The notes below the pieces were generated by a model. The model searched no databases. It was given only the letters and a program-made list of their open reading frames with translations, and was not told where the DNA came from. From Argentina anserina (lineage: Eukaryota > Streptophyta > Magnoliopsida > Rosales > Rosaceae), in contig NC_065875.1 in assembly GCF_933775445.1 (NCBI RefSeq), forward strand, positions 4,105,001 through 4,169,000: a stretch of 64,000 bases of DNA, given 5' to 3'. Every line of letters begins with the position of its first letter. Positions within the stretch are counted from its first letter, which is position 1. Shown here one piece after another: positions 6,243 through 50,594 of the stretch. Both the position numbers and the translations under genes were made by a program.

Positions 6243-7491
6243 ATGGTACCACTTGACCCCTCGGCCTGCCTCGTCGACGACCTCCGCCACTTCCTCTCCG
6301 ACGTCGCCGACCACGACGCCCGCCCCGAAGATCCCTCCCGCCCTCTAATCCCAACTGTAAGTCCCCCACCCCTTTTTTGTCCGGTTTTGCTTTCAGGGTT
6401 TTAGATACCCGAACCGGGTCGGGCTCTTAAACCCGGCCGGCGTATGTTTCGTGGCTGCCGGCGCGGTCGGGTTCGGGCCGATTGACTGTTGGGTCCAAAG
6501 TCCTGGTGTTGTTCTGGTCGCCGGCTTTTCCTGATTGGTGCAGGCCGTGCGTCTGCGGAACTGGTTTTCCTAATGACGGTTTTGCCCCCATTGAAATCGG
6601 GTGGTGTGGTATAGGAGACAGGGGTAGTTATGGTAATAAAAAAAATCGTGCGGATTGGTCTTTATCATAGTGAGCTGGTGCCGTTACAGATTCCACCCAA
6701 ATGACCCAATTTGCTAACGCCCACCTCAGGGGTGTGAAAAGACAGTCTTATCCCAATTTAGATATTATTTGTCTGAACACCTGCCCACGCAGACGTGGCG
6801 GCTTTTTAGTAATTTTGTCCTCTTTTGTTTTTGCTGTTGCCGCCGCTGAACACTGAGTTAACTCTAAAACCCCGCACCGAGTTGACTCACTGGGCTCATA
6901 TTTCTGTAGGAGGAAGCAGAAGAAGAGCTGGAGTGGATATCGAACAAGGACGCATTCCCGGCGGTGGAGACGTTCATCCTTTCGGAGCAGGTAAGCGGCA
7001 TTGCGAAGAACCAGAGCCCGGTGTCGGTGCTGGAGAACAGCAGCACAAACAGCAGCAGCGCCTGTCTTATGAGCTCGTGCGGGGGGCTAAAACCGCCGCA
7101 CCGAGCGCGAACCAAAGGCCGACGCAGGCGGAGCGAGATTCCGCCGCAGCAGCTCTTTTGGAACCAGGCTCCCATTGAGAGCAGCAAACCCAGCAGCAGG
7201 AGTGGTGGCAGTGGCAGTGGCAGTGCCAGCAAGCTGGATATGGGGAGGAAATGCATGCATTGCGGGACGGATCAGACCCCGCAGTGGCGGATGGGTCCAC
7301 ACGGGCCTAAAACGTTGTGTAATGCGTGTGGGGTGAGGTACAAGTCGGGGCGGCTGTGCCCCGAGTACCGCCCTGCGAGTAGCCCGACGTTCTTGAGCGA
7401 GATGCATTCGAATTCCCACAGGAAGGTGTTGGAGATGAGGAAGCAGAAGTATGGTGTGGGGATGGTTGTGAAGCCTGAGGACAAAGGTTAG
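6243..7491 (+). CDS. GATA1-like transcription factor (class A plant GATA), two exons
   Basis: Model: exon 1 6243-6356, intron 6357-6909 (GTAAGT...TGTAG, phase 0), exon 2 6910-7491; 231 residues. Residues 39-58 carry the acidic motif [18 protein letters not shown], typical of the N-terminal part of Arabidopsis GATA1-type proteins. It is followed by QSPVSVLE and a basic [10 protein letters not shown] stretch, a likely nuclear-localisation signal. The single zinc finger (about residues 153-178) is CMHC, an 18-residue loop containing TPQWRMGP, then CNAC, followed by the conserved VRYKSGRL and YRPASSPTF tail. The 18-residue loop is the plant class A form, expected to bind WGATAR sites as a nuclear regulator. 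Start chosen because MVPLDP opens the only upstream frame that splices in phase and matches MVSLDP of the paralogue at 9623. All signature residues are present, so the gene looks functional. It is the likely unexpanded model for the neighbouring array. Confidence 0.93.
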
Positions 7492-9622: not shown

Positions 9623-10600
9623 ATGGTGTCACTTGACCCAGATGACTTCTTGGCCGACCTCGCCGACCTCTCGGACCATCCCAGCCGTCCGTTTCCCGTA
9701 AGTTCATCTCCACCACCGTTATGGGTTTTACTTAGGGTTTTAGCCACCCCCTTGTTCACTACTTGGCTGTACTTGAGTCTCTGTTTTTCATTTTGTTAAA
9801 TTACAAAGAAATAGCCTCTTTCCTCTTTTGGGTTTGTCTAACTCGACTGAAATTATGTACTACAATCCAAAGTTGGGAACTTTTTTGGTTTTTGAATTTT
9901 TGTGGTGCAGGAGAAGCTTCCTGAGGAAGAAGAGCTTGAATGGATATCCAATATAGACGCTTTTCCGGCCGTAGAAACCTGCATGCTGCCGGAGGACCCG
10001 CTGGCGCAGCAGAAGACTGTTCCCAATGCCATGCAGGGGAATGGAGCTCTGTCATTGCCGCCAATGCCGGGCAGGAAACCAAATGAGGACAGTGGCAAAG
10101 GCAAGAGTATGAGAGGTTGCGCATTTTGCGGGGTTATGCAGGGCAAGGAGGGTCCCTCGGGGATGTGTAATGCGTGCGGGTTTAGCTACAAGGCTGGTAG
10201 GCATTGCGCTGAAGAAGTAGAGGATCCTGAAGAGCCGAGCATTAAGAGTGACAAGGTGAAGAAGAGAACTAAGAGTGATAAGGTGAAGAAGAGCATTAAG
10301 GGTGATGAGGTGAAGAAGAGCATTGAGAGTGGTGAGGTGAAGAAAATTGGGAGACAGTGTACACATTGTGGGATTACAAAGACTCCGCAGTGGCGGATGG
10401 GTCCTCTTGGACTTCAAACCCTGTGTAATGCTTGTGGGGTTAGGTACAAGTCAGGGCGCCTTTGCCCCGAGTACCGCCCTGCAAATAGCCCTACGTTCTT
10501 GCCGGAGTTGCATTCGAATTTGCACAGGAAGGTAATTCAGATGAGGAATCAAACATATGGGATTGAGGGAACGATGGCAAAACCTGTGGATAATTGGTAG
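9623..10600 (+). CDS. GATA1-like factor, short form, with a degenerate plus a canonical finger
   Basis: Exon 1 9623-9697, intron 9698-9910 (GTAAGT...GTGCAG, phase 0), exon 2 9911-10600; 254 residues. MVSLDP and the acidic [19 protein letters not shown] motif match the gene at 6243. A first finger-like motif (about residues 95-114) has CAFC and CNAC separated by only 12 residues instead of 18 and lacks the TPQWR core, so it probably does not bind DNA. Four 9-residue charged repeats (KSDKVKK type, DNA 10244-10351) follow. Next comes a canonical finger (about residues 175-200; [12 protein letters not shown]) with the [18 protein letters not shown] tail. The stop is TGGTAG at 10595-10600. That same GGTAGG can act as a splice donor, which would extend the protein into exons 3-6 to 15834. 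This short form is what results if the donor is not used. Confidence 0.85.
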
Positions 10601-13600
10601 GCATTTTTCTGCTTTTTCCATCTTATGTTTTATGTTGGTTAGGACTAGGAGCAGAGTAGGATAGGGTAGTGGGCGTTAAGATAATCGGATGGGAATGGAA
10701 TTGATAGCTTTGATGAGAATGTGGATTGGTGGATTGATGATGATATTGGTCCTTTCATTGTTGTTACAAATTTTCATAAGGCATTTCTTTTTCAATTGAC
10801 TAAGAATTTGATAATATTTCTTTTTTCCAATGTATTATCTTTCTTGACTAACTTGAGCCAAATCGATAGTATGTTTGGAGTTATAAACTGAAAATCATTG
10901 TCCTGTTTCTTGAATTTGGATTTGATGGACTACAAATGACTTAGGATTACTTGATGGAAAATTTCTGTATTGTTTAATGTTCTGCATCATCTCTGTTGAT
11001 AATTTTTCTCTAACGCACAGTGTTTATAAAAATGTAGTTCTTTCTTCTTAAATTTGGATTGATTTACATATTTAGATAAATAATGATAATGGGGGTTCTA
11101 GGAATTTCTTTTCATAATATTTTGTAGATTATCGTACTATGCATCTTCCTAACTGATCTTAACCTCATTTGATTGTTATAATGGATTATCATAAATCCTA
11201 TATCGTTCTGTGAAACAGCACAAACAGTGCTGCGACCACGGCAATAGTGAATATTTTGGAGCGGCCAAGAAGAAAGGTCATTGCTGAGAAGCAGAGCCCT
11301 GTTTCTGTGCTTGAAGACAACACAAAAAGCAGCTCCACCCTGGAGTCCCACCAACCCCCAAGCAAATTTTTGGGGCAGCAGCAGCAGTTGGTCAGTAACC
11401 AACTTAACAACAAGCACAACCCAGAAGACACTGCCAAAGTGGAAGTTGAGACAAACACCACCACCCTCATGAATTCCCATGGGACCATCAAGCTGTCCTA
11501 TAAAGTGCCAAGCAGAATTTTAGAGCAGCAGCAGCTGTTTAGTTGCCAACCTACCAACAAACGCAGAAAGAAAAACACTGTCAAATTGAAGAATGAGGGA
11601 GCCGTTGCTACTCTCACGAGTTCTTGTGCGAACCTTGAGTCGCCAAATGAATTTCTGGAGCGGCAACAGCTGTTTAATGATCAACCTAACAATAACTGCA
11701 ACAAGAAGCATACTGCCATAGTGGAGGTGACCGTGAAAGCTGTGGATATATGGTATGTTTTTTTTTGTCTTTGCCTGGTTACTTTAGTGTGGTTAGGAGT
11801 TAGCAAGGTTGTTGTAATGGGCCTAGGATTGATCAGATGGTAAAGGACTAAAGGTAACTTCTTTGTTTGGTCAGTAAGCCAATGGAATTTTAAACTTGGC
11901 ATGCAATGCTTTATACTTGAAATTCATGTTGTTCTGTGATTCAAATCTTAATTTTACTCCTCTGCTGCTTGAAATTGGATTTGAGGGATATGAGGAAAGA
12001 TAATTTATATTAATGCATTGAATGATGTGGTCTTCTTTTGTCCTTTGAAATATATTATACTGTGCATAATCTTTCTTGACTAAAGGTAATTTCTTTGTTT
12101 TGGCCAGTAAGCCAATGAAATTTTAAACATGGCATGCAATGCTTTATACTTGAAATTCATGTTGTTTTGTGATTCAAGTCTTAATTTTATTCCTCTGCTG
12201 CTTGAAATTGGATTTGAGGGATATGAGGAAAGATAATTTATATTAATGCATTGAATGATGTGGTCTTCTTTTGTCCTTTGAAAATATTATACTGTTTATA
12301 ATCTTTCTCGACTAGCAACAGCTCAACTGAATAGCGTTTGGATATGGTCCAAGACTCTAACTTTAAGTTTCTGCTGCCTGAAATTGGACTTGATGGATTT
12401 GGGAGAATGTGGATCGACTTATTTATTTATTTCTTTCTTTCTTTTGTATGGGTTTTTCTGCTGACAAGCTTAGTTCTTTGCTATCTTGAATGTACACTTG
12501 AGTATGGAGATTTAAGGAGATTATGCATAGATGGATTTTGGGTTCTGGTAGTTCTTAATTGAGAGAATTGTTTCATGTGCATTATCTTTCTTGACCAAAT
12601 TCATTCCTAGTAGATAGTATTTTCGTAGAATTGTTTATGTTTCTGTGACTCCGTTTATCGTCCATTTTGAATATTATTACTTGATCAACTTTACACGTAA
12701 TGGAAAGTATACATGAGATTCAGAGATTCTAGTTTTTTCTTCTGTTTCTTGAATTTGGATTGATAACTTTGAATATATTCTTGAATTCAATAATTGTGGG
12801 ATATTATAATGTTTTTGAATATATTGACGAGGGATTTGGGAGTTCATGTTTTATGCATCTTTTTTTTTACTGAACTGATCCTTACTGATAACTATATTGA
12901 CAGCAGCCCCACTCTCATGAAGTCTAAGAAAGATTCATTGCCTGCTGTTGAAACATCAAATATCTTGGATCATTCAAGAGGCCATATTATTGCTGAACAG
13001 CGGATCCCTGTCTTGGTGCTTCAAAACAACACTAACAACAGTGCCACCCTCATGAGGGGTGCCTGTGAGACTGTTGAGCTGCCCCACCAGTCCTCAAGCA
13101 AAATTTTCAGGGAGCAGATGCTGTTTTATAACCCAGCTAACGACAACCCTGACAAAATAGACACTGCCACAGTGGAGATCGAGGGAAACATCACTTCCAC
13201 AATGAGCTCCTGTACAACACCCACGCTGGCCAGCCAAGCGCCAAACGAATTCTCCAGTCAGCAGGAGCTGTTCTTTAACTATCCTAATATCAACTGCAAC
13301 AAGAAAGACACTGCCATAGTGGAGATTGAGACAAAATGCCAGAACTGTGGGGCTAAACAGAGCTCCCAACAGTGGGAGGGTCCCATTGGACCCAAAATCT
13401 TGTGTCTTTCATGTGGGCTAGCCGGCATGGCCCAGAACACTGCTAGGCGGAAAAGAAGTACGCCTTTAGCTTCTTACAAAAGGTGCAAAAAGGAAGACAT
13501 TGCCAAAGTGAAGATGGCAGTGAAACTTGGTGATAAATGGTATGTTTTTCTTTGTCTTTGCCTTGCCGTGTCATAAGTGTGGTCAGGAGCTAGTAGGATT

Positions 13601-15834
13601 GTTGTAATGGGATCTAGGATAGTCAAGCTATGGATGAGTTCTTTGTTTTGTTAAATAAGTTCATGCTATGCTTATTGAACACTTTTGTATTGATATTATT
13701 AGATTTTCTTTTGTTGATTTTTGCAAATCTGAATTCTTTGCTGTACTGTGTTTCTGTTGTGACCTTGTTATCCAAAGATTGAATCATCTGTCTTGAACAA
13801 CTGTAGTTCAACAGTTGCATTCATTATGGTCATACATTAACTTTCTGCTTTGTTACTTGAATTGGATTTGATGGTTTAGTGGACTGTTGATTTGGTCTTT
13901 CAGTAGGATATCCTTAGTAGTTAAGGTTTTGTTTCTAACTTACTGTTTGCTATTTTTATTTTCCATTTGAGGATGATTATGGAGGATTTTGAAATCACAG
14001 GATCGAGTGTTTGCAGTTTTTTTTTTTAAAAAAACTTCCCTGAGATAATCTCTTTATCTTTTCTGGATACTGCATTTGAAGATATTAAATATATACTTTG
14101 TTTCCCTCTTGCTTGAGTTTTCATTTGGTGGACTCAAGGTGATTGGGTTAATGGATTAATGTTCTATCTTTTAATCATCTCTCTTAGTTCTAATTCCCTT
14201 TTTTTTTATCTGTATCACTAAATGTGGCAAAGCATGTCAGTATATGGATGGGTTTTGGTTCTTTTTATTGACTCTAGCTCTGACAGTTGTTTGTGATTTC
14301 CAGCACAAACGGCACTGCTGCCCTCATGAACTCCAAGAAAGACCCCTTTATCGATACATTAAATATCTCAGAGAAACCAAATGTCGTTGTCATTGCCGAG
14401 GAGCAGACCCCTGCCTCTGTGTTTGGATACAGCAGCATGCCCCTCATGAGCTCTACTCCGACCATCAACCCCCTCAACCAAGCCCCAAGCGAATTTCTGG
14501 GCCAGCAGAACCAGTTATGTGACCATAAGAATCACAAAGAGAAAGATGCTGCCACTGTGGAGACTGAGGGAAACAGCTCTACCCTCATGAGGTCCTCTGG
14601 GACCCTTGAGTTGCCCAACCAAGACCTAAACGAAATTTTGGAGCAGCAGCAGCTGCTCTGTAAGAAAGCTAAGAACATCCCCAACAAGAAAGACACTGCT
14701 AGAGTGGAGATCAAGGAAAACAGCACCACCCTCATGATCCCTTGTGGGACTTCCAAGGCGCCCTACCAATCACTGAGTGAATTTCTGGGACAACAACAGC
14801 TTATTTGTAACCGAGATAACAATGATACAAACAAGGAAAATGCTGTCAATATGGAGAATGAGGGTAAGTGCCAAAATTGTGGGGAAGAACAGAACCCACG
14901 ATGGTTGGGAAGTTGCCTTGGACCAAAAACCCTATGTCATGTCTGTGGGCTGGCTAAGTTCACAGCCCTGCAGCAAAGCAGTATTGCTATGGAAATGCCC
15001 TGTCCATTACCTGCCACTGTAAGTTTTGGACAAACATGTATGGTCTTATGAATTAAGAGTTTGGAGTTACCTATTCGGCTTATGTGTTTGTGACTTAAGC
15101 TTATTCGGGTTCATTTACTGATTCCACTGACATTTTTCAATATCTGTATGTCGCAGAAACCAAGTGTTATAGCCAATGGCGAGCACCAAAAACTTTTCTC
15201 AGCTCAGGAAAATAGCACAAAGAACAGCACAGACCTCATGAGCTCCTGCAGGATAACGATACCCCACCGCGCCCGAAGCAAGGGTCACTGTAGAAGAAGA
15301 AGCACAATTCCAAGCCAGCAAGTTGGGATTGGAGAAAAATGTGTGCAATGCGGAAAACAGACAAATAGGTGGCGGATGGGTCCCCTCGGACCCACAACCC
15401 TGTGTAATGCCTGTGGAAATAAGTACCTGCCCTTGTGGGGAATAAGCGAAGTGACAGTGGACATCACCAAGTGTCAGCATTGCGGGTCTAGAGAGGCGAC
15501 ACAATTGCTAATGAGTGCCCTTGGAGCCAAAACCCTATGTGCTGTATGTTATCATTGGATTAAGTATGGGCGGCAGCAGTTATGTAACCAAACTAACAAC
15601 AATTCAGACAGGAAAGCCATTAGTAAAGTGGTTACTGGAAGAAAATGCCATCATTGCGGAGTTGAGGAAACCGCACTTTGGCGGTCAGGTCCTATGGGTT
15701 CCAAAACACTATGTAATGCATGTGGGCTCCGGTGGTACAAATTCGGGGATTTTTGCCGTGACTGCTGTGCTAGTATATCAATGCCTTCGATTTGTCACAG
15801 GAAAGTGCCGACATGTAGAAGCAAGAAATTGTAG
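9623..15834 (+). CDS. Long-form model: six-exon fused poly-finger GATA protein
   Basis: Joining 9623-9697, 9911-10596, 11219-11752, 12904-13539, 14304-15018 and 15157-15834 gives one uninterrupted frame of 1107 codons plus stop. Every junction has GT-AG borders and matching phase: 0, 2, 2, 2, 0. Predicted fingers lie at about residues 95-114 (shortened), 175-200 (canonical), 577-602, 833-858, 944-968, 988-1013 and 1046-1071. A 47-55 residue repeat rich in Gln and Asn separates them. No in-phase ATG exon of the MVSLDP type precedes exons 3-6, so they are best explained as extensions of this gene. Open frames and compatible phases across about 5 kb argue against simple decay, but several fingers have lost key residues. 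Alternatives are a short 254-residue product plus untranslated remnants, or a mixture by alternative splicing. Transcript data would decide. Confidence 0.55.
10244..10351 (+). repeat. 27-bp coding minisatellite (4 units)
   Basis: Four tandem 27-bp units encode nine-residue blocks of the type K-S-D-K-V-K-K-S-I between the degenerate and canonical fingers. The units differ by a few substitutions and keep frame. They form a highly charged, probably disordered or helical spacer. The simple GATA gene at 6243 has none. Confidence 0.85.
11219..11752 (+). CDS. GATA array exon 3: linker repeats, no finger
   Basis: Acceptor AAACAG at 11213-11218, donor GTATGT at 11753, phase 2 at both ends. The exon begins CACAAACAGTGCTGC, close to the DNA of the simple GATA gene (STNSSSA), then encodes [11 protein letters not shown], the motif seen before the basic region there. 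Three diverged linker units follow, each with a Thr-Leu-(Met) opening, an (E/K)FLGQQQL-type centre and an N-N-x-x-N-K-K-D-T-A end. No zinc finger is present: the finger-encoding part was not duplicated or was lost here. The repeat appears to descend from the linker in front of the finger (PPQQLFWNQ in the simple gene). Exon status is inferred from splice sites and the open frame. Confidence 0.55.
11848..12312 (+). repeat. 232-bp tandem duplication inside GATA intron 3
   Basis: Two adjacent copies (about 11848-12079 and 12080-12312) share long blocks such as GGCATGCAATGCTTTATACT and AATGCATTGAATGATGTGGT with few differences. They contain no coding sequence. Their similarity is higher than between the surrounding GATA exons, so this duplication is younger than the exon duplications. 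Confidence 0.85.
12904..13539 (+). CDS. GATA array exon 4: linker repeats plus altered finger
   Basis: Acceptor TTGACAG ending 12903, donor GTATGT at 13540, phase 2 at both ends. It opens with [19 protein letters not shown], recalling the [12 protein letters not shown] block of the simple GATA gene, then an [12 protein letters not shown] form of the SPVSVLE motif. Two linker units follow. The finger (long-model residues 577-602) is CQNC, 18 residues, then CLSC. The four cysteines and the tryptophan are kept, but the usual WRMGP is WEGP and the CNAC asparagine is replaced, and the basic YKSGRL tail is missing. It may fold around zinc, but sequence-specific DNA binding is doubtful. The exon is preceded by about 1.15 kb of intron that resembles the 3' flank of a GATA gene. 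Confidence 0.6.
14304..15018 (+). CDS. GATA array exon 5: three linker repeats plus altered finger
   Basis: Acceptor TTTCCAG ending 14303, phase 2; donor GTAAGT at 15019, phase 0. It begins with the same CACAAACGGCACTGCTGCC-type start as exon 3. [12 protein letters not shown] is a diverged PAVET-type block and [10 protein letters not shown] a diverged SPVSVLE. Three linker units follow, the best-preserved series in the array. The finger (long-model residues 833-858) is CQNC, 18 residues, then CHVC. It keeps tryptophan and GPKTLC, but the WRMGP core reads WLGSC and the CNAC asparagine is histidine. A strong internal donor-like GGGTAAGTG at about 14862-14870 sits just before the finger and could give a finger-less splice form. 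Confidence 0.6.
15157..15834 (+). CDS. GATA array exon 6: terminal exon with three fingers
   Basis: Acceptor GTCGCAG ending 15156, phase 0; stop TAG at 15832-15834. It resembles the simple GATA gene more than the middle exons do: [27 protein letters not shown] and STIPSQQ match its linker and basic stretch. Three fingers follow. The first (residues 944-968 of the long model) is CVQC...CNAC with a 17-residue loop retaining WRMGP. The second (988-1013) is CQHC...CAVC, which has lost the tryptophan (QLLMSA). The third (1046-1071) is CHHC...CNAC with WRSGP and 18 residues, the best candidate here for DNA binding. The YRPASSPTF tail is missing and ends as a Cys-rich stretch and CHRKVPTC. The 3' flank again carries a TAGTAGGATTAG block like the other copies. 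Confidence 0.65.
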
Positions 15835-20229: not shown

Positions 20230-21230
20230 GCACTTCAAAAATTGAGAGTCCCCACAACTCTCTTCTTCTTCTTCTTCTCCTTCCCAGCTTCTCTTCTCTT
20301 CTCTTCTCTACACAGGGAGCTCACATCAGAGTGACAGCAGCATCACCAAAGCATGCTTTGTCGGCCATTAAAGCTTCACCCAAAAGCTCTGCCACCTTCA
20401 TTTTCCTAATTCATTCACACCCATCATTCCTAAAGATTAAACCTTTATCAATTTTGGGTTCATGGGTTTATTGCTATTTGGTGCAATATAATATACCCAG
20501 CAAGATCTCTATCTCTTTTGGTTCTGTTTCACACTTTGCATTCTTGAAAAAGGTGCGGCCTTTTTTGCTTCAATCTTGGCCCTTTTGGGTTTTTTTTGGG
20601 GTTCATGATTCCTTGGCTTTCAGCTTGTCATTTCAGCCGACTCAGTTGCCCAAGTGGTGGTGGCCTCTTGCATTTTCTTTCTGTTTTCGATGAAGTGATC
20701 ATGGAGTTTGAGAGGTATGATGCTTAAAGCTTCAGTCTCTGCAGTCATTGGTTTGTTTTCAGTTTCACTTGTTCTCGGGTTCATGAAAAAATTGATGGAT
20801 CACTCTTTTCTATTATGTTGGTTTCAGTTTCACTAGTTTAATCAGTTCATCAGTTTTGTGTCATTTGGTTCCTCTCATTTCTGAAACGTTTAGTTTATCT
20901 ATTATTCTTGTGTTTATTGTGCTGTTCTTTCTGTTTAGCAGTGTGAATTTAACTTAAAGGTGCTCTATGTTGCTTATCTATTTTAGGTTGTATTGATATG
21001 TATATGGTGAAGTTTGTTTTGTCAAATTGAATTGATCTCTTGAATGTGTTTGGATCTTATATTCCGAGACTGGCAAGAATTTTATTCATTGTGTAAATAA
21101 ACAGTATTGTAGATGATGCTAGGGAATCGATTTGGTTATACTGCATTGTGATCTGAAGTAGCCATCGATTTGCAGGTGCTAAAATATCATAGTTATGAGG
21201 TAGTTGTGATCCTGATTGAGGGTTACTAAG
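20230..21230 (+). promoter_or_regulatory. Probable 5' leader of the receptor kinase, with a leader intron
   Basis: A pyrimidine-rich stretch (TCTTCTTC repeats, about 20250-20310) is typical of plant transcript starts. A candidate leader intron runs from GTATGA at 20715 to TTGCAG at 21175, leaving a short exon before the start codon at 21231. The 170-codon frame at 20181-20693 overlaps this leader and has no domain, so it is not called as a gene. Leader structure is inference. Confidence 0.45.
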
Positions 21231-24200
21231 ATGTCCAGAAAGTTTGTATCTCGGAGGGCTTTGGAAGTTGACTTTGTGGGAATCTTGCTTGCTGTCTTAT
21301 TACTTGTTTGCACTTCGGAGGGATTGAACTCTGAAGGCCTTTACCTTTTAGAGCTGAAGAAGAGTATTTTGGATGAATCAAATAATTTGGGAAGTTGGAA
21401 CTCTGCTGATCAAACACCGTGTGGATGGATGGGTGTGAATTGCACTTCTGGTTATGATCCAGTGGTTCAAGGTCTTCATTTGAAATCCATGAATCTATCA
21501 GGAACCCTGACCCCTATTATTGGTGGTTTGCTTCACCTAACTTCGCTTGATCTGTCATCAAATGGTTTCTCTGGAGGCATACCCAAGGAGATTGGAAACT
21601 GCTCTAGTTTGGAAAACCTGTATCTGAATGATAACAAGTTTACTGGCGAAATACCTGCTGAATTGGGTAATCTGTCTAAATTAAGAAGTTTGAATGTCTG
21701 CAACAACAAAATCTCTGGCACCCTTCCAGAGGAACTTGGGAACTTGTCTTCACTTGTTGAGTTTGTGGCATACACCAACAATATTACTGGCTCAATACCT
21801 TCTTCTTTTGGGAATCTAAAAAATCTGGTAACTTTTCGTGCTGGGCAGAATGCTATTTCTGGTAGCATACCAGCTGAAATAGGTGGATGTCAGAACTTGA
21901 AAGTGCTTGGTCTTGCTCAAAATGTTATAGGAGGGGAGTTACCTAAAGAGCTTGGGATGCTTAGGAGCATGACAGATCTGGTTCTGTGGGATAATCAGGT
22001 TTCAGGGTTTATTCCTAAGGAGCTTGGTAATTGCAGTAGTCTCGAGACAATTGCTCTATATCAGAACCAACTTATGGGGGCTATACCTCCAGAAATTGGG
22101 AACCTCAAGTCATTGAGGAGATTGTACCTCTACAGGAATGGTTTGAATGGAACCATTCCCAGGGAAATTGGAAATCTTTCGTATGCTGCTGAGATTGATT
22201 TTTCTGAGAACTATTTGATGGGTGAGATACCTTATGAGATAAGTAAGATTAGTGGTCTAAGCTTACTGTACCTTTTCCAGAACCAGCTCTCGGGTGTGAT
22301 TCCAAATGAGCTAAGTAACTTGAAGAAATTATTAAAGCTTGACCTTTCAATCAATCAACTTGAAGGTCTTATTCCAGATGGGTTTCAATATTTGACCGAA
22401 TTGAGCCAGTTGCAGTTGTTCGATAACTCTCTAAGGGGGAGCATACCTCTGTGGCTTGGTAGTCACAGCCGACTTTGGGTTGTTGATCTTTCAGATAACT
22501 TACTAACAGGGAGGATACCTCCTTACCTTTGTCAGCGTTCCAATCTAATCTCGTTGAACCTGGACTCTAATGATCTTTATGGAACTATCCCGACTGGAGT
22601 TTTGAACTGTGAATCATTGGTGCAGCTTCGCCTCGTTGGAAACAGGCTTACTGGCAGCTTTCCTTCAGAGCTATGCAATTTGGCAAACCTTTCTGCGATT
22701 GACTTGGACAGGAACAAGTTCACTGGATCAATTCCTCCAGAGATTAAAAAGTGCCAAAAGTTGCAAAGGCTTCACATTTCAGACAATTACTTCACATCCG
22801 AGTTGCCTAAGGAAATAGGATATCTATCTCAACTGGTAACTTTCAACTTATCATCTAATTTTCTCACTGGGCAGATTCCTCCTGAAATTGTAAACTGCAA
22901 GATGCTTCAACGACTAGACCTCAGTCGGAATAGATTCAAAGGTGCTTTGCCAAATGAGCTGGGAACGCTTTTGCAGTTGGAGCTTCTGAGACTTTCAGAA
23001 AACAGTTTTACCGGAAATATACCAGCAGCATTAGGAAACCTTTCACATTTGACAGAGTTGCAGATGGGTGACAACTTGTTTTCAGGTGAAATACCACCTG
23101 AATTGGGTTCTCTTTCAAGCTTGCAGATTGCGATGAATCTCAGTTTTAATAATTTAAGCGGGAGAATACCACCAGCACTTGGAAATCTTATTTTACTTGA
23201 ATTTCTTCTGCTCAATAACAATAATTTGACTGGTGAAATTCCCAGCACGTTTGAAAACTTGTCAAGCTTAATGGGTTGCAACTTCTCTTACAATGACCTT
23301 TCGGGATCTTTACCTCCCATCCCACTTTTTCAGAACATGGCAATAAGCAGCTTTGTTGCGAACAAAGGTCTTTGTGGTGGGCCTCTCGGTGTTTGCGGTG
23401 TAAATTCATCTCCAAATTCTGTTCCATCTCTGAACAGATTGAATACTTCTCGCAGTAAAATCATTACAATAATTGCAGCTGTTGTGGGCGGTATTTCTCT
23501 TATCTTAATTGCTGTTCTCTTATATTTCATGAGACGTCCAGGTCAAATGGTTCCCTCCATGCAAGAAAAGTATTGTTTGCCTCCTGATACAGATATTTAC
23601 CTACCTCCAAAGGAGGGGATCACGTTCCAAGACCTGGTTGAGGCGACAAATAACTTTGATGAGAGCTTTGCTATTGGAAGAGGAGCTTGTGGAACAGTTT
23701 ATAAAGCAGTAATGCGATCTGGACTTATTATTGCTGTTAAGAAGCTTTCAGCTAACCGGGAGGGCAATAACATTGAAAACAGTTTCCAGGCTGAGATTTT
23801 AACTCTGGGAAATATTAGGCATAGGAATATTGTGAAGCTCTATGGATTTTGTTATCACAAGGGTTCCAACCTACTTCTTTATGAGTACATGGAAAAGGGT
23901 AGCTTGGGTGAAGTTCTTCATGGTGAATCTTGCAGCTTGGACTGGCCAACTCGTTTCATGATTGCTCTTGGAGCTGCTGAAGGTCTTGCTTACTTACATC
24001 ATGACTGCAAACCGAGGATTGTCCACCGTGATATAAAGTCCAATAATATTTTGCTAGATGAGAAGTTCGAAGCCCATGTTGGTGATTTTGGTTTGGCAAA
24101 AGTGATTGATATGCCTCATTCCAAATCAATGTCAGCAGTTGCAGGATCATATGGATATATTGCTCCTGGTAAGCTTTACTTTTTGTTCTTTTTATGTGAT

Positions 24201-25024
24201 TATTATTGGCATGGATCACTATATTCATTGGAATCCCAAAGATCAGCGGTTTAATTTAGTCTCTCTAAAATTCATAGTTACTGATACACAGTTGATATAC
24301 TCTTGAAAAAATTAGGATACATTTAACCTCAGGACGCAAATGGGGCATGAGTTAAGAACAGAGGCTGTGCACAAAATAAAAGAAAATGAAGTCTTGGAAT
24401 TTCTAAGGAGCTCTTTTTTTTTCTTGATGAATGCATAGTGGTCATCTACTAAATCCCCCCCCCCCCTGCCTAGCTGTCAATCATTGAACGCATGCATTTT
24501 GAGCTTTCATTAGTTTAGTAGACTTATCTCTGCAGTTGCTTTGTTCTTCATTGTTTTTTCTTTTAGAAATCAATGATTTATGGAATGATTGATTGATATT
24601 ATGACTCTTCCTCATGGCAGAGTATGCGTACACCATGAAGGTTACAGAAAAATGTGACATATATAGCTACGGGGTTGTTCTATTGGAACTGCTAACCGGA
24701 AGAACTCCCGTACAATCACTGGATCAAGGAGGTGATCTTGTCACTTGGGTTAGGCACTATATCCGAGACCATTCTTTGACAGCTGGAATACTCGACGGCC
24801 GGTTGAATCTTCAAGACAAATGTATGGTTGATCACATGCTTACTGTCCTGAAAATTGCTCTGATGTGCACCAGTACGTCTCCGTTTGACCGACCATCAAT
24901 TCGAGAAGTTGTGTTGATGCTTATCGAGTCTAATGAGCAAGAAGGAGACTATGTTCCATCTCCAACTTATGATCTCCCATTGAAAGGTGATTCAGATCTT
25001 CCATTGAAAGATGATACTCGGTAA
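21231..25024 (+). CDS. LRR receptor-like serine/threonine kinase (LRR-XI type), two exons
   Basis: Exon 1 21231-24168, intron 24169-24620 (GTAAGC...GGCAG, phase 1), exon 2 24621-25024; 1113 residues. Order: signal peptide (about residues 10-30), LRR N-terminal cap with CGWMGVNC (about 63-70), more than twenty 24-residue leucine-rich repeats of the LxxLxxLxLxxNxLxGxIP type, a juxtamembrane cysteine pair (GLCGGPLGVCG, about 713), one membrane segment (about 743-766), and a cytosolic kinase from about 805. Kinase motifs are intact: GRGACGTVYKA glycine loop, AVKKL lysine, HRDIKSNN (an RD kinase), DFGLAK, and APE, whose glutamate codon is split by the intron. It should sit in the plasma membrane and relay an extracellular peptide signal. 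It resembles Arabidopsis At2g33170/At5g63930-type receptors; the ligand is unknown. The ATG at 21231 is chosen over an in-frame upstream TTG because it gives a normal signal peptide start. Confidence 0.96.
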
Positions 25025-42389: not shown

Positions 42390-42497
42390 ATCTTAAGACG
42401 TTTAATTTTGATATTGCTTATATAATTTGTATTCGATATTTATCTGAATCTTTTCAAGTAAACTTACACCTTGTGTGTGTGCTTCAGTTTCTAAAAA

Positions 42498-43526
42498 ATG
42501 ACTAACGGAGAAAATTCTGGAAATGGCAAGGGACTTTTGGTGCCAACTGTGCCTACTGCTCCCGTTGTACCTGTCTCAGTATCCCATGGGGAAAAACCTG
42601 AGAAGTTCAACGGTTTGCATTTCAAGAGGTGGCAACAAAAGATTATGTTTTATCTGACCACTCTGAATCTGGCAAGATTTTTGACGGAGAATGCTCCTGA
42701 GTTAAAGGAAGATGACCATGGCGATCAAGCAAAGATTGCTGCTGTGAATGCATGGAATAATTCTGACTACTTATGTAGGAATTATATCATGAATGGTCTA
42801 GCCGACTCATTGTACAATGTGTACATTAGCATGGGAACGGCAAAGGAGCTATGGGAATCCTTGGAGAAAAAATATAAAACCGAGGATGCCGGCGCCAAGA
42901 AGTTTATCTTGGGCCGGTTCCTTGATTATAAAATGGTGGATTCCAAAACTGTGATGAGTCAATTCTCTGAGATTCAGCTAATCCTGCATGAGATTCACGC
43001 TGAAGGAATGCAACTAGGTGAAAGTTTTCAAGTGGCATGTGCTATTGATAAGTTACCACCTGCTTGGAATGACTTCAAGAATTATTTGAAGCACAAGCGA
43101 AAGGAAATGACCATGGAGGATCTAGAGGTTAGACTTCGCATTGAGGAAGACAACCGAGGATCCGAAAAGAAAGCATGGATCAATGATGTCTCTGTCAAGG
43201 CAAACATGATGGAACATGGTCAAGGTTCCAAAAACAAGAAAGGCAAGTATCATGGGTCCAAACTGGGGCCGAAAAGAGGCATCTCCAAGAAGCCAAGGTT
43301 TGAAGGCAAGTGCTACAACTGTGACAAGACTGGTCACAACTCTGTGGACTGCAACAAACTAAAGAGGAACAAAAAGAGAGAGGCAAACCTGATTGAAGCC
43401 GTCACTCAGGAGGTTGCAGACATGAACCTCTGTTGTATGATATCAGATGATAGCATGAAAAAATTCAGTGATTATGACTGGGGACTAAATGACTTAGAGC
43501 TATGGTATGACCAAGCCAAGTTTTAG
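42498..43526 (+). CDS. Copia gag (copy 1)
   Basis: 342 codons. It contains a UBN2/gag-type capsid region ([14 protein letters not shown] near residue 35) and one CCHC knuckle, [14 protein letters not shown] (about residue 273), that binds RNA. It ends where the protease would be expected: [10 protein letters not shown] then stop, without a D-S/T-G-A motif. Gag forms the cytoplasmic particle. This frame is complete and could be made even though pol is broken, so the element may persist by using proteins of a relative. Confidence 0.88.
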   Translation: MTNGENSGNGKGLLVPTVPTAPVVPVSVSHGEKPEKFNGLHFKRWQQKIMFYLTTLNLARFLTENAPELKEDDHGDQAKIAAVNAWNNSDYLCRNYIMNGLADSLYNVYISMGTAKELWESLEKKYKTEDAGAKKFILGRFLDYKMVDSKTVMSQFSEIQLILHEIHAEGMQLGESFQVACAIDKLPPAWNDFKNYLKHKRKEMTMEDLEVRLRIEEDNRGSEKKAWINDVSVKANMMEHGQGSKNKKGKYHGSKLGPKRGISKKPRFEGKCYNCDKTGHNSVDCNKLKRNKKREANLIEAVTQEVADMNLCCMISDDSMKKFSDYDWGLNDLELWYDQAKF

Positions 43527-43799
43527 GATTGATCTGTAGAACAGAACTGAAATTATCGAATAAATTGATGTATGTTCTTAAGGGTTTTATGAGTATAAAA
43601 CTCCGTGTTGACAAATGTGTTTTGTCTGAAATTGACATAGAGCCATGGGTGGTGGATTGTTTATTGTCAAAAACTAGTTATTACACCTATATGAGTCTTC
43701 CTAATTTATGGTAGTGAAGAATATAGTATATGTCAATTAACATGCACAAGTGTGAACTTGTGTAGAGACAAAACTGATTAGATCATCTTCCAAAGTATT

Positions 43800-46201
43800 G
43801 AAAGAAACAATGAACCCCTTGATCTGATTCATACAGATGTGTGTGATTTAAAATCAACGGTATCTAGAGGGAATAATAAATATTTTATTACCTTCATAGA
43901 TGATAGCACAAAATATTGCTATGTGTATTTGCTAAAATGCAAAAGTGAGGCCATAGAGAAGTTCATTCTCTATAAAAAGGTTGAGAACCAACTCAACAAG
44001 AAAATTAAGGCACTAAGAAGTGACCGAGGGGGTGAGTATAAATCGTCATTTGCTGAGACTTGTGCTCAGAATGGAATTATACATCAAAGGACTGCTCCAT
44101 ACTCACCACAATCAAATGGTGTAGCAAAACACAAAAATCATACTCTAAAGGATATGATGAATGTTATGCTACTCAGTTTTGAGATGCCACCCAACATGTG
44201 GGGAGACGCGATTCTCACGGAAAATTACCTTTTAAATAAGGTGCCCAAAAGGAAAGAAGAGAAAAACTCCGTATGAGTTATGGAAATGGAGAAAACCATC
44301 CTACAAATACTTAGAAGTATGGTGATGTTTGGCAAAAGTGAAAATTCCTAAACCTAAAAAGGTGAAGAATTGGCCTAAAACAGTGATTGCATCTTTATTG
44401 GATATGCACATAACAGTTCGGCTTATCGATTCCTAGCCCACGATTCGAATATTCCTGAAATTCATAAGGATACGATAATGGAATCGAGAAATGCATCTTT
44501 CTTTGAAAATGTAATTCCACGAAAGTCTAGAGAGGAATTTAATTCTTCTAAACGGGCACGTGAAGACAACCGAGCCGAAACTGATGATGTTCAGGGTCAA
44601 GAATCTGAGTCTGAGGTTGGACCTAGACGAAGTAAAAGGGCAAGGACCGCAAAGTCCTATGGACCTGACTTCTTGTCATATATGGTTGAAGGTGATCCCC
44701 GTACCTTCAAAGAGACAGTGAGCTCTATTGATGGTCCTCTATGGAAAGAAGCAATCAAAAGTGAGGTTGACTCCATCATGCAAAATCACACTTGGGAATT
44801 AGTGGATTTGCCACCTGGATGTAAGCCTTTGACTTCCAAGTGGATTTTCAAAACGAAATTAAAAGTTGATGGGTCAATAGACAAGTACAAGGCTAGACTT
44901 GTTATTAAAGGCTATAGGCAAAATGAGGGTTTGGTTTATTTTGACACTTATTCTCCTGTGACGAGAATAACATCCATACGGATGGTACTTGCAAGTGCAG
45001 CGTTGCACAAACTTGAAGTACACCAAATGGATGTAAAGACGGCTTTCCTAAATGGAGATGTAGAAGAAGAAATCTACATGGAACAGCCAGAAGGTTTTTC
45101 TGCTCCTTCTCAGAGTAAGAAGGTGTGCAGATTGGTTAAGTCATTATATGGCTTCAAACAAGCACCAAAACAATGGCATGAGAAATTTGATAATGCCATG
45201 ATCACCAGTGAATTTAGAATAAATGAAGGTGATAAGTGTGTATATATCAAAGACACTGAAAATGGATATATCATTTTATGTCTGTATGTGGATGATATGC
45301 TTATCGTTGGGAGCAACGATAAGATGATCAAGTCTACTAAAGACATGTTGAATTCTAAGTTTGACATGAAAGACTTGGGACTTGCTGATGTCATTTTTAA
45401 ATTAGGAGAACATCAGAAGGGCTAGTGTTGAGTCAAACACACTATGTGGACAATATTCTTGGGAATTTTGTGGACAATATTCTTGGGAATTTTGACAAGG
45501 AAGGTTCTGGAATTGTCAGAACTCCTGTAGATTTGAATCTACATTTGTCCAAGAATAAAGGTGAAAGTGTTTCTCAATTAGAGTATTCAAGAATAATTGG
45601 GAGTCTAATGTACTTAACAAGTAATCCTGCAGCTATGCATTGGCAAGCGATTGGAAGAGTACTCAAATACCTAAGGTATACTCGTACCTACGGGTTGCAC
45701 TACACATCATACCCAGCTGTTATAGAAGGGTTCACTGATGCGAACTGGATATCTGACATGAAAGACTCAAAGTCTACTAGCGGATATGTATTTACACTAG
45801 TGGGTGCAGCCGTGTCCTGGAAGTCCTCAAAACAAACAGTTATAACTAGATCCACAATGGAGTCTGAGTTTGTAGCACTAGACAAATGTGGGGAGGAAGC
45901 AGAATGGCTACACCAGTTCATAGAGGACATTCCTAGATGGACAAAACTTGTGCCTGCGATTAGTATACATTGTGATAGTCAATCTGCAATTAGCAGGGCA
46001 TAGAGTAAGATGTATAATGGTAAGTCTAGACACATTCGTCAAAGACATAATACAATTAGACAACTACTCTCAACTGGAGTTATCTCTATAGACTATGTAA
46101 AGTCTAAGGATAATGTTGCTGATCCTTTAACTAAAGGGTTAAACCGAGAGTTAGTTGAAAAATCATCGAAGGGAATGGGACTAAAGCCCATTGGAAATTA
46201 A
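43800..46201 (+). pseudogene. Copia pol remnant (integrase, RT, RNase H), copy 1
   Basis: Broken into frames 43839-44276, 44478-45425, 45425-46003 and 46010-46201. Integrase keeps HTDVCD and SDRGGEYKS, but the third catalytic position reads GVAKHKN where Copia elements usually have GVAERKN, so the glutamate is lysine. RT has KWIFKTKLK, MDVKTAFLNGD and CLYVDDM. RNase H has [15 protein letters not shown] and SEFVALDKC, then VKSKDNVADPLTKGL. A 27-bp direct duplication (VDNILGNF twice, about 45440-45496) lies at the RT/RNase H border. No protease is seen. Not a working polyprotein. Confidence 0.88.
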
Positions 46202-47780: not shown

Positions 47781-47888
47781 ATCTTAAGACGTTTAATTTT
47801 GATATTGCTTATATAATTTGTATTCGATATTTATCTGAATCTTTTCAAGTAAACTTACACCTTGTGTGTGTGCTTCAGTTTCTAAAAA

Positions 47889-48917
47889 ATGACTAACGGA
47901 GAAAATTCTGGAAATGGCAAGGGACTTTTGGTGCCAACTGTGCCTACTGCTCCCGTTGTACCTGTCTCAGTATCCCATGGGGAAAAACCTGAGAAGTTCA
48001 ACGGTTTGCATTTCAAGAGATGGCAACAAAAGATGATGTTTTATCTGACCACTCTGAATCTGGCAAGATTTTTGACGGAGAATGCTCCTGAGTTAAAGGA
48101 AGATGACCATGGCGATCAAGCAAAGATTGCTGCTGTGAATGCATGGAATAATTCTGACTACTTATGTAGGAATTATATCATGAATGGTCTAGCCGATTCA
48201 TTTTACAATGTGTACATTAGCATGGGAACGGCAAAGGAGCTATGGGAATCTTTGGAGAAAAAATATAAAACCGAGGATGCCGGCGCCAAGAAGTTTATCG
48301 TGGGCCGGTTCCTTGATTATAAAATGGTGGATTCCAAAACTGTGATGAGTCAATTCTCTGAGATTCAGCTAATCCTGCATGAGATTCACGCTGAAGGAAT
48401 GCAACTAGGTGAAAGTTTTCAAGTGGCATGTGCTATTGATAAGTTACCACCTGCTTGGAAGGACTTCAAGAATTATTTGAAGCACAAGCGAAAGGAAATG
48501 ACCATGGAGGATCTAGAGGTTAGACTTCGCATTGAGGAAGACAACCGAGGATCCGAAAAGAAAGCATGGATCAATGATGTCTCTGCCAAGGCAAACATGA
48601 TGGAACATGGTCAAGGTTCCAAAAACAAGAAAAGCAAGTATCATGGGTCCAAACTGGGGCCGAAAGGAGGTATCTCCAAGAAGCCAAGGTTTGAAGGCAA
48701 GTGCTACAACTGTGACAAGACTGGTCAGAAGTCTGTGGACTGCAACAAACCAAAGAGGAACAAAAAGAGAGAGGCAAACCTGATTGAAGCCGTTACTCAG
48801 GAGGTTGCAGACATGAACCTCTGTTGTATGATATCAGATGATAGCATGGAAAAAGTCAGTGATTATGACTGGGGACTAAATGACTTAGAGCTATGGTATG
48901 ACCAAGCCAAGTTTTAG
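47889..48917 (+). CDS. Copia gag (copy 2)
   Basis: Same 342-codon frame as copy 1 with about a dozen substitutions (for example the knuckle reads [14 protein letters not shown]). In the CCHC motif the histidine is replaced by glutamine, which should weaken zinc binding, so this copy looks less likely to work than copy 1. It ends at the same stop before the missing protease. Confidence 0.85.
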
Positions 48918-49190
48918 GATTAATCTGTAGAACAGAACTGAAATTATCGAATAAATTGATGTATGTTCTTAAGGGTTTTATGAGTATAAAACTCCGTGTT
49001 GACAAATGTGTTTTGTCTGAAATTGACATAGAGCCATGGGTGGTGGATTGTTTATTGTCAAAAACTAGTTATTACACCTATATGAGTCTTCCTAATTTAT
49101 GGTAGTGAAGAATATAGTATATGTCAATTAACATGCACAAGTGTGAACTTGTGTAGAGACAAAACTGATTAGATCATCTTCCAAAGTATT

Positions 49191-50279
49191 GAAAGAAACA
49201 ATGAACCCCTTGATCTGATTCATACAGATGTGTGTGATTTAAAATCAACGGTATCTAGAGGGAATAATAAATACTTTATTACCTTCATAGATGATAGCAC
49301 AAAATATTGCTATGTGTATTTGCTAAAATGCAAAAGTGAGGCCATAGAGAAGTTCATTCTTTATAAAAAGGTTGAGAACCAACTCAACAAGAAAATTAAG
49401 GCACTAAGAAGTGACCGAGGGGGTGAGTATAAATCGCCATTTGCTGAGACTTGTGCTCAGAATGGAATTATACATCAAAGGACTGCTCCATACTCACCAC
49501 AATCAAATGGTGTAGCAAAACACAAAAATCATACTCTAAAGGATATGATGAATGTTATGCTACTCAGTTTTGAGATGCCACCCAACATGTGGGGAGACGC
49601 GATTCTAACGGCAAATTACCTTTTAAATAAGGTGCCCAAAAGGAAAGAAGAGAAAAACTCCGTATGAGTTATGGAAATGGAGAAAACCATCCTACAAATA
49701 CTTAGAAGTATGGGGATGTTTGGCAAAAGTGAAAATTCTTAAACCTAAAAAGGTGAAGAATTGGCCTAAAACAGTGATTGCATCTTTATTGGATATGCAC
49801 ATAACAGTTCGGCTTATCGATTCCTAGCCCACGATTCGAATATTCCTGAAATTCATAAGGATACGATAATGGAATCGAGAAATGCATCTTTCTTTGAAAA
49901 TGTATTTCCACGGAAGTCTAGCGAGGAATTTAATTCTTCTAAACGGGCACGTGAAGACAACCGAGCCGAAACTGATGATGCTCAGGATCAAGAATATGAG
50001 TCGAAGTCCGAATCTGAGTCTGAGGTTGGACCTAGACGAAGTAAAAGGGCAAGGACCGCAAAGTCCTATGGACCTGACTTCTTGTCATATATGGTTGAAG
50101 GTGATCCCCGTACTTTCAAAGAGACAGTGAGTTCTATTGATGGTCCTCTATGGAAAGAAGCAATCAAAAGTGAGGTTGACTCCATCATGCAAAATCACAC
50201 TTGGGAATTAGTGGATTTGCCACCTGGATGTAAGCCTTTGACTTCCAAGTGGATTTTCAAAACGAAATTAAAAGTGGAT
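49191..50279 (+). pseudogene. Copia pol remnant, copy 2, cut inside RT
   Basis: Integrase frame 49230-49667 with the same GVAKHKN change as copy 1, then a frame from 49869 that reads the start of RT (LWKEAIKSEVDSIMQNHTWE, then KWIFKTKLKVD). Homology to copy 1 stops at about 50279 and the frame continues only by chance into antisense SPH sequence. A 24-bp insertion relative to copy 1 adds an acidic stretch (YESKSESES) near 49995. Confidence 0.85.
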
Positions 50280-50594
50280 TGTCAGCCATGTTTTTTCCAC
50301 AAAACTATATCCGTACTTGTAGAAGTTGATTTTTGTTCATCCGAATTTGCATTGAAAAGTACACCAGAAAAGCGTTGTTCCCCATAAATAATCTCCGAAG
50401 CTAAAATCGTAATGAGCTCCATTCGGTATGACGTCATCGCCAAGGTTGTCGTCCTCGGATTCACAGTGGACTTTGAGTTCTTGCACATCAGGTAAATTGT
50501 TTTCGATCCAAACTTCCTTAGCGGTTGTAATCATCTCAAAATAAGCTATGAACATGGTCATCAGCAAGGCTTGGTAGCGAAATATTGCCCCCAT
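50280..50594 (-). pseudogene. S-protein homologue (SPH), 3' end cut by Copia junction
   Basis: Minus strand from ATG at 50594. A signal segment (MGAIFRYQALLMTMFIAYFE) leads to VWIENNLP, LKVHCESEDDNLGDDVIPNG, YDFSF and WGTTLFWCTFQC. Then a stop follows unless the frame is shifted by one, where NSDEQKSTSTSTDIVLWKKHG continues the fold. The C-terminal part with C-x-x-C, GPC and CY-x-W is missing because Copia sequence begins at 50279. Both truncation and frameshift make it a pseudogene. Confidence 0.82.

Follow-up and report, generated by a model that had tools for sequence, protein, structure and literature searches.

A seven-finger GATA-type gene in Argentina anserina, apparently assembled from tandem copies of the terminal exon of a GATA1-like gene

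A long gene in the genome of Argentina (Potentilla) anserina (Rosaceae) can be read as one frame of 1107 codons that carries seven GATA-type zinc fingers. It occupies positions 9623–15834 of a 64,000-nucleotide window (NCBI RefSeq assembly GCF_933775445.1, contig NC_065875.1, positions 4,105,001–4,169,000), to which all coordinates refer; every feature described for the gene and its upstream neighbour lies on the forward strand. Judging from sequence comparison, we consider it quite probable that the gene is functional and conserved in the Rosoideae, that it arose by duplication from a class A GATA gene, and that it encodes a nuclear GATA-type transcription factor acting as a multivalent DNA binder. 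Plant class A genes of the GATA1 type have one finger near the C terminus and two exons. The long gene does not follow this layout; a GATA1-like gene located upstream of it does.

The gene model was rebuilt by trying GT/AG combinations around the borders given in an initial annotation of the window, which had proposed six GT-AG exons with phases 0,2,2,2,0 joined without interruption. Six combinations produced a complete open frame. One of them uses every border of the initial annotation and reproduces the 1107 codons, the phases and a single stop at the very end; the other five differ from it only in the acceptors of exon 2 (9914, 9917) and exon 4 (12907). Exon 1 (9623–9697) comprises 25 codons in phase 0 and is homologous to exon 1 of the upstream gene. 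Exon 2 (9911–10596) encodes an acidic N-terminal region followed by an altered finger, F1, and a canonical finger with a basic tail, F2. Exon 3 (11219–11752) is finger-free and holds three linker modules (11319–11450, 11457–11597 and 11607–11729). Exon 4 (12904–13539), which is preceded by two adjacent acceptors (12904/12907), holds two further modules (13040–13183 and 13193–13330) and the altered finger F3, and exon 5 (14304–15018) three modules (14434–14568, 14575–14715 and 14722–14862) and the altered finger F4. Exon 6 (15157–15834) contributes F5, the altered F6 and F7, and then the stop. Base composition separates the exons (47–61% G+C) from the introns (31–38% G+C, 41–45% T). After shuffling of their letters, exons 2–6 remained open in none of 2000 trials each, whereas exon 1, which stayed open in 1185 of 2000, is too short for this test. 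The open frame is not due to chance.

The best database match to the predicted protein is an NCBI protein of the same species, LOC126790757 isoform X2, annotated as ‘uncharacterized’ and 1057 residues long, with 100% identity over 96% of the query. It implies the same borders, starts at Met50 of the 1107-residue protein and is one serine shorter, because the second of the two adjacent exon 4 acceptors, 12907 rather than 12904, was apparently used. The Fragaria and Rosa models begin at the exon 1 methionine, as does the 1107-codon model.

Seven in-frame C-x2-C...C-x2-C motifs are spread over exons 2, 4, 5 and 6, and the Pfam GATA model (PF00320) recognizes six stretches of the protein, scoring 133 bits against a cut-off of 26.8. 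The class A spacing CX2CX18CX2C is found in F2, F3, F4, F6 and F7; the loop is X17 in F5 and X12 in F1, where Rosa has X15. F2 (10358–10435) has the canonical TPQWR and LCNAC elements and F7 (15646–15723) retains WR and LCNAC; both match solved GATA structures by sequence. F5 (15340–15414) retains WR, with LCNAC in Argentina and Rosa and LCNVC in Fragaria. The DNA-contact residues are accordingly kept in F2 and F7, and nearly so in F5, whereas F1 (10118–10177), F3 (13337–13414), F4 (14869–14946) and F6 (15472–15549) are altered, in agreement with the chain of partly altered fingers that the initial annotation had described. F3 reads CLSC and WE, F4 CHAC or CHVC and WL, and F6 CAVC, CTSC or CAAC with LL or WL, changes that presumably fall on residues contacting DNA in the known GATA structures. 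The CLSC of F3 is common to Argentina, Fragaria, Rosa and Rubus, and the CH.C and WL of F4 to the first three genera (the F4 of Rubus has CVAC); being common to several genera, the changes in F3 and F4 are therefore old.

Relatives were collected in three homology searches, comprising 100 proteins, the best 120 of 4357 matches and the best 120 of 160 matches, respectively; from the third, four proteins (P0208, P0209, P0210 and P0215) were inspected. The initial annotation had proposed looking for the same exon chain in related genomes, and there it is: a Fragaria vesca protein of 1267 residues (P0002) and a Rosa sericea protein of 1024 residues (P0003) each carry seven fingers in the same order. 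Among the 100 proteins of the first search, seven motifs occur only in Argentina, Fragaria and Rosa, and two Alopecurus proteins have five. The 107 proteins that were new among the best 120 of 4357 carry two motifs (54 proteins), one (32), three (18), four (2) or none (1). When each finger was compared with those of another species, its top-scoring partner carried the same number in 56 of 60 cases; the exceptions were Rosa F1 (two cases), Rubus F4 and Rubus F6. Because same-numbered fingers pair across species, the seven-finger layout most likely predates the divergence of Argentina, Fragaria and Rosa.

Conservation extends along the whole chain. In a three-way alignment of the Argentina, Fragaria and Rosa proteins, which differ from one another at 25–32% of aligned residues, all 28 zinc-ligand cysteines are invariant, compared with 92 of 147 other finger positions (Fisher p = 1e-5) and 13 of 18 other cysteines (p = 0.006); in exon 6, the ligand cysteines are kept in four genera, Rubus included (12/12). 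Of the 886 gap-free columns, 544 are invariant, and the proportion hardly depends on the exon: 110/189 (58%) in exons 1–2, 110/175 (63%) in exon 3, 63/106 (59%) in exon 4, 137/228 (60%) in exon 5 and 124/188 (66%) in exon 6. With 102 residues of exon 4 absent from Rosa, the count for this exon is based on half its length. Since the 28 ligand cysteines are invariant and exons 3–6 are conserved as well as exons 1–2 in the gap-free columns of the three genera, the chain is very probably a real conserved gene, as opposed to a two-finger gene trailed by degenerating copies.

The upstream GATA1-like gene (6243–7491), here called the parent gene, is located 2.1 kb upstream of the long gene and encodes 231 residues with a single finger (7252–7329) and one linker module. 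It consists of exon 1 (6243–6356), an intron (6357–6909) and exon 2 (6910–7491), ending at a TAG stop (7489–7491); acceptors a few bases away fit too. It resembles the long gene in exon 1, the start of exon 2, the linker motif, and finger F2 with its tail, and differs in having one finger and two exons instead of seven and six. The exon 2 ends of the two genes share 79% DNA identity over 223 nucleotides, through the stop codon, and exons 3–6 match one another and the parent gene in pieces. The homology of exons 1–2 to this neighbour, together with matches named GATA transcription factor 1 among the best 120 of 4357, argues for descent from plant class A GATA genes.

The ends of exons 2–4 align at the parent stop: where the parent gene reads GGTTAGG, with its TAG stop, exon 2 has TGGTAGGC and exons 3 and 4 have TGGTATGT. 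At this very position lie the GTATGT donors of intron 3 (11753–12903) and intron 4 (13540–14303), two introns that match each other strongly at their starts. The 160 bases that follow the parent stop, taken as its 3' untranslated region (3'UTR), were compared with intron 3, intron 4 and the 3'UTR of the long gene, and each comparison outscored all 500 shuffles. By alignment, therefore, donors 3 and 4 coincide with the old stop codon, and the introns they open begin as old 3'UTR. A 24-mer of the parent 3' flank, made by eye from its own copies, has six matches with at most five mismatches in the 64 kb, two of them within one recent duplication; all six fall in the parent flank or in introns 2–4, and 40 shuffled controls gave one match in total. 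For intron 2 (10597–11218), whose donor GTAGGC overlaps an in-frame TAG (10598–10600), the stop position and the flank motif agree with an origin from 3'UTR and the first bases disagree; we infer that it, too, probably began in this way. Given that the exon ends align with the parent stop and that introns 3 and 4 resemble its 3'UTR at their starts, the chain looks like the product of tandem copying of the terminal exon, splice donors having arisen at the old stop. Intron 3 also contains a tandem duplication of ~232 bp (11846–12314), 95% identical and recent relative to the rest of the locus.

Paralogues of the chain elsewhere in the A. anserina genome were considered and rejected: among 18 matches, of which the best candidates were scored, those to the linker exons all lie within the locus, and matches on other contigs hit finger regions. 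Two further GATA finger loci stand 7 kb apart on contig 5 (25150263 and 25157015), possibly another tandem pair.

Variation is seen in the linkers. A 47-residue module profile, built from the proteins compared here, detects eight full-size modules in Argentina, 11 in Fragaria, six in Rosa and one in the upstream gene, plus half-copies and weak matches, and Fragaria has an additional block of 181 residues between exons 3 and 4; across the three genera, finger number is constant and linker number changes. The initial annotation had called the linkers Gln/Asn-rich, which stands in a mild sense (8.7% N, 6.1% Q), with serine (9.1%), lysine (8.7%) and threonine (8.1%) alongside. Synonymous and nonsynonymous divergence (dS and dN) were compared between paralogous modules and for the parent pair, within the window only. 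The parent finger region and the F2 region gave dS 0.97 and dN 0.17; for the linker-module pairs, the mean proportions of synonymous and nonsynonymous differences (pS and pN) were 0.51 and 0.34, with two of 28 pairs saturated at synonymous sites. By these values, the F2 region is under purifying selection, and the linkers weakly so.

We propose that the gene started as a class A (GATA1-like) gene of two exons, whose terminal exon, with its 3' flank, would have been repeatedly duplicated in tandem. In the internal copies, the old stop region would have become a splice donor and the old 3'UTR an intron, so that the copies were fused into one frame, whose product strings zinc fingers together with flexible linkers. 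Binding to GAT-core DNA would be expected of F2 and F7 and probably also of F5. F1, F3, F4 and F6, which keep the zinc ligands and have lost the usual DNA-contact residues or loop length, would most likely be zinc-held folds for partner contacts or for weak or altered DNA contacts, and the chain as a whole would bind clustered sites multivalently. Splicing in vivo, a nuclear role, DNA binding and the role of the altered fingers are what we infer from these features.

Several observations weigh against a working seven-finger gene. The Rubus argutus array has been deposited in four pieces, the models M0R45_018627, 018628, 018631 and 018633 (P0114, P0210, P0102 and P0208). The finger 1–2 region of 018627 is out of frame, the finger 2 region matching exon 2 in its +1 frame (60 residues, 70% identical), and 018631 is without F1 and F2; F3 is found in 018628 and 018631, and F4–F7 in 018633. 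This break-up may reflect mis-annotation or real loss, and by numbers and content the array may represent two tandem copies of the chain. The F6 of Rubus still reads CNAC, so the change in that finger is not old everywhere. Compared with the parent finger, F1, F3, F4 and F6 of Argentina score below their Rosa counterparts, as they would in slow decay. The residues missing from exon 4 of Rosa amount to two modules, and a 20-residue insertion is present at its exon 5/6 junction; among the 26 unsaturated module pairs, dN/dS ranges from 0.14 to 1.37 and exceeds 1 in four, as under relaxed constraint. On a rough splice-site matrix, intron 2 has the lowest-scoring of the five donors, and introns 2 and 3 have ordinary acceptors. 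In intron 2, the 160 bases directly beyond the TAG match the parent 3'UTR no better than shuffled sequence does (104 of 500 shuffles reach the score). AlphaFold models were uninformative, with a mean predicted local distance difference test (pLDDT) score of 26.7 for the whole protein (three sequences) and 36.0 for exon 6 (four sequences); they favour neither side on the role of the altered fingers, and the short hairpins in exon 6 prove nothing.

In a small comparison, the tail of a Malus domestica GATA1-like protein of 308 residues (P0215) resembled the F2 region translated in the wrong frame (E 7e-7). As a lead only, this points to a second copy, out of frame, behind the GATA1 gene of apple as well.

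The in-frame TAG within the intron 2 donor bears on what the gene produces, since retention of that intron would yield a two-finger protein of 254 residues. The locus might therefore make both products, the short one by intron 2 retention or by early polyadenylation inside that intron and the seven-finger one by splicing. The donor overlaps the parent-stop position with the in-frame TAG preserved, and the name ‘isoform X2’ implies that two or more transcripts were predicted; this arrangement, which is compatible with a seven-finger gene, we regard as a tentative possibility. Slightly more doubtful is the full combination in which Argentina, Fragaria and Rosa keep the seven-finger count while the linkers vary, four fingers that lost their DNA contacts have become new modules for binding partners, and the old stop codon within the donor acts as a switch between the two- and seven-finger forms.

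Alternatively, exons 1–2 would form the whole working gene, a two-finger protein ending at the TAG, and exons 3–6 would be decaying copies strung together by gene finders. The position of the TAG at the exon 2/intron 2 border, the low-scoring donor, the altered fingers and the broken-up Rubus models fit this picture. Exons 3–6, however, are open and, in gap-free columns, conserved like exons 1–2 in the three genera, their ligand cysteines included, and no further start exon was found in introns 2–5. Drifting copies, moreover, should have gained stops: in a selection-free simulation, they acquired a mean of 6.4 at 0.05 and 11.4 at 0.10 substitutions per site, and one of 300 and none of 300, respectively, remained open. 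We consider this alternative unlikely. That the chain consists of separate tandem GATA genes with their own starts, wrongly joined by the initial annotation and by NCBI, is highly improbable, for despite the evident tandem duplication and the split Rubus models, introns 2–5 contain no exon-1 homologue although the two known exons 1 recover each other at E 4e-7, the same borders are joined in the models of three species (whose independence is limited, as annotation pipelines draw on homology), and the frames of exons 3–5 continue past their GT borders without a stop there.

Plant GATA factors with several fingers have been published. OsGATA24 of rice is described with four domains, or in another paper with three and one truncated, and OsGATA25 and OsGATA26 with two (PMC4401516, PMC5693882); Setaria SiGATA26 is described with three (PMC9347092). 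With at least two GATA domains, the long gene belongs among such factors, and it resembles them in combining several fingers in one protein, some altered or truncated; it differs in having seven, compared with four at most in these accounts. Among the best 120 of 4357 matches, judged by coverage only, Oryza proteins cover 16–26% of the query and those of other grasses, Leersia included, 13–48%, and the rice and Setaria factors may well have arisen independently. Across 5,335 plant GATA factors, a survey counted between one and five domains in each protein, with 97.17% having one, and gave a Fragaria x ananassa protein of 1,392 residues as the longest eudicot member (PMC11608367); that protein is possibly the strawberry copy of the long gene. 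For pear, peach, cherry and apricot, a survey of Rosaceae reports GATA proteins of 119–548 residues (PMC8618624). In the open-licence literature searched, we found no plant GATA protein with seven fingers and, by title, no paper about this gene. The initial annotation had suggested a new architecture. With multi-finger factors published in rice and Setaria and the gene model already at NCBI, this does not hold as to kind; exceeding the maximum of five given in the survey, seven fingers make the gene an extreme variant and not a new kind. Animal two-finger factors of the GATA-1 type differ in having two neighbouring fingers, and the match of F2 and F7 to their solved structures is at finger level only.

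The proposed origin appears to extend a published model, ‘intron gain by tandem duplication’ (PMC4974935). Both involve duplication across a splice border and a donor drawn from what had been exon in the upstream copy. As that model is described, the long gene differs in that its donors lie at an old stop, former 3'UTR became intron, and the step recurred within one gene.

Elsewhere in the window, an open stretch of 1012 codons (21216–24251) encodes a leucine-rich-repeat receptor kinase, and two adjacent copia-type retroelement copies (42495–46000 and 47886–50384) both contain gag_2, with reverse transcriptase found in the first.

If the proposed origin is correct, a route from a single-finger to a many-finger regulator would be visible here with the parent-type gene still adjacent. 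The strawberry and rose group would then offer a natural test of what additional and altered plant GATA fingers do.

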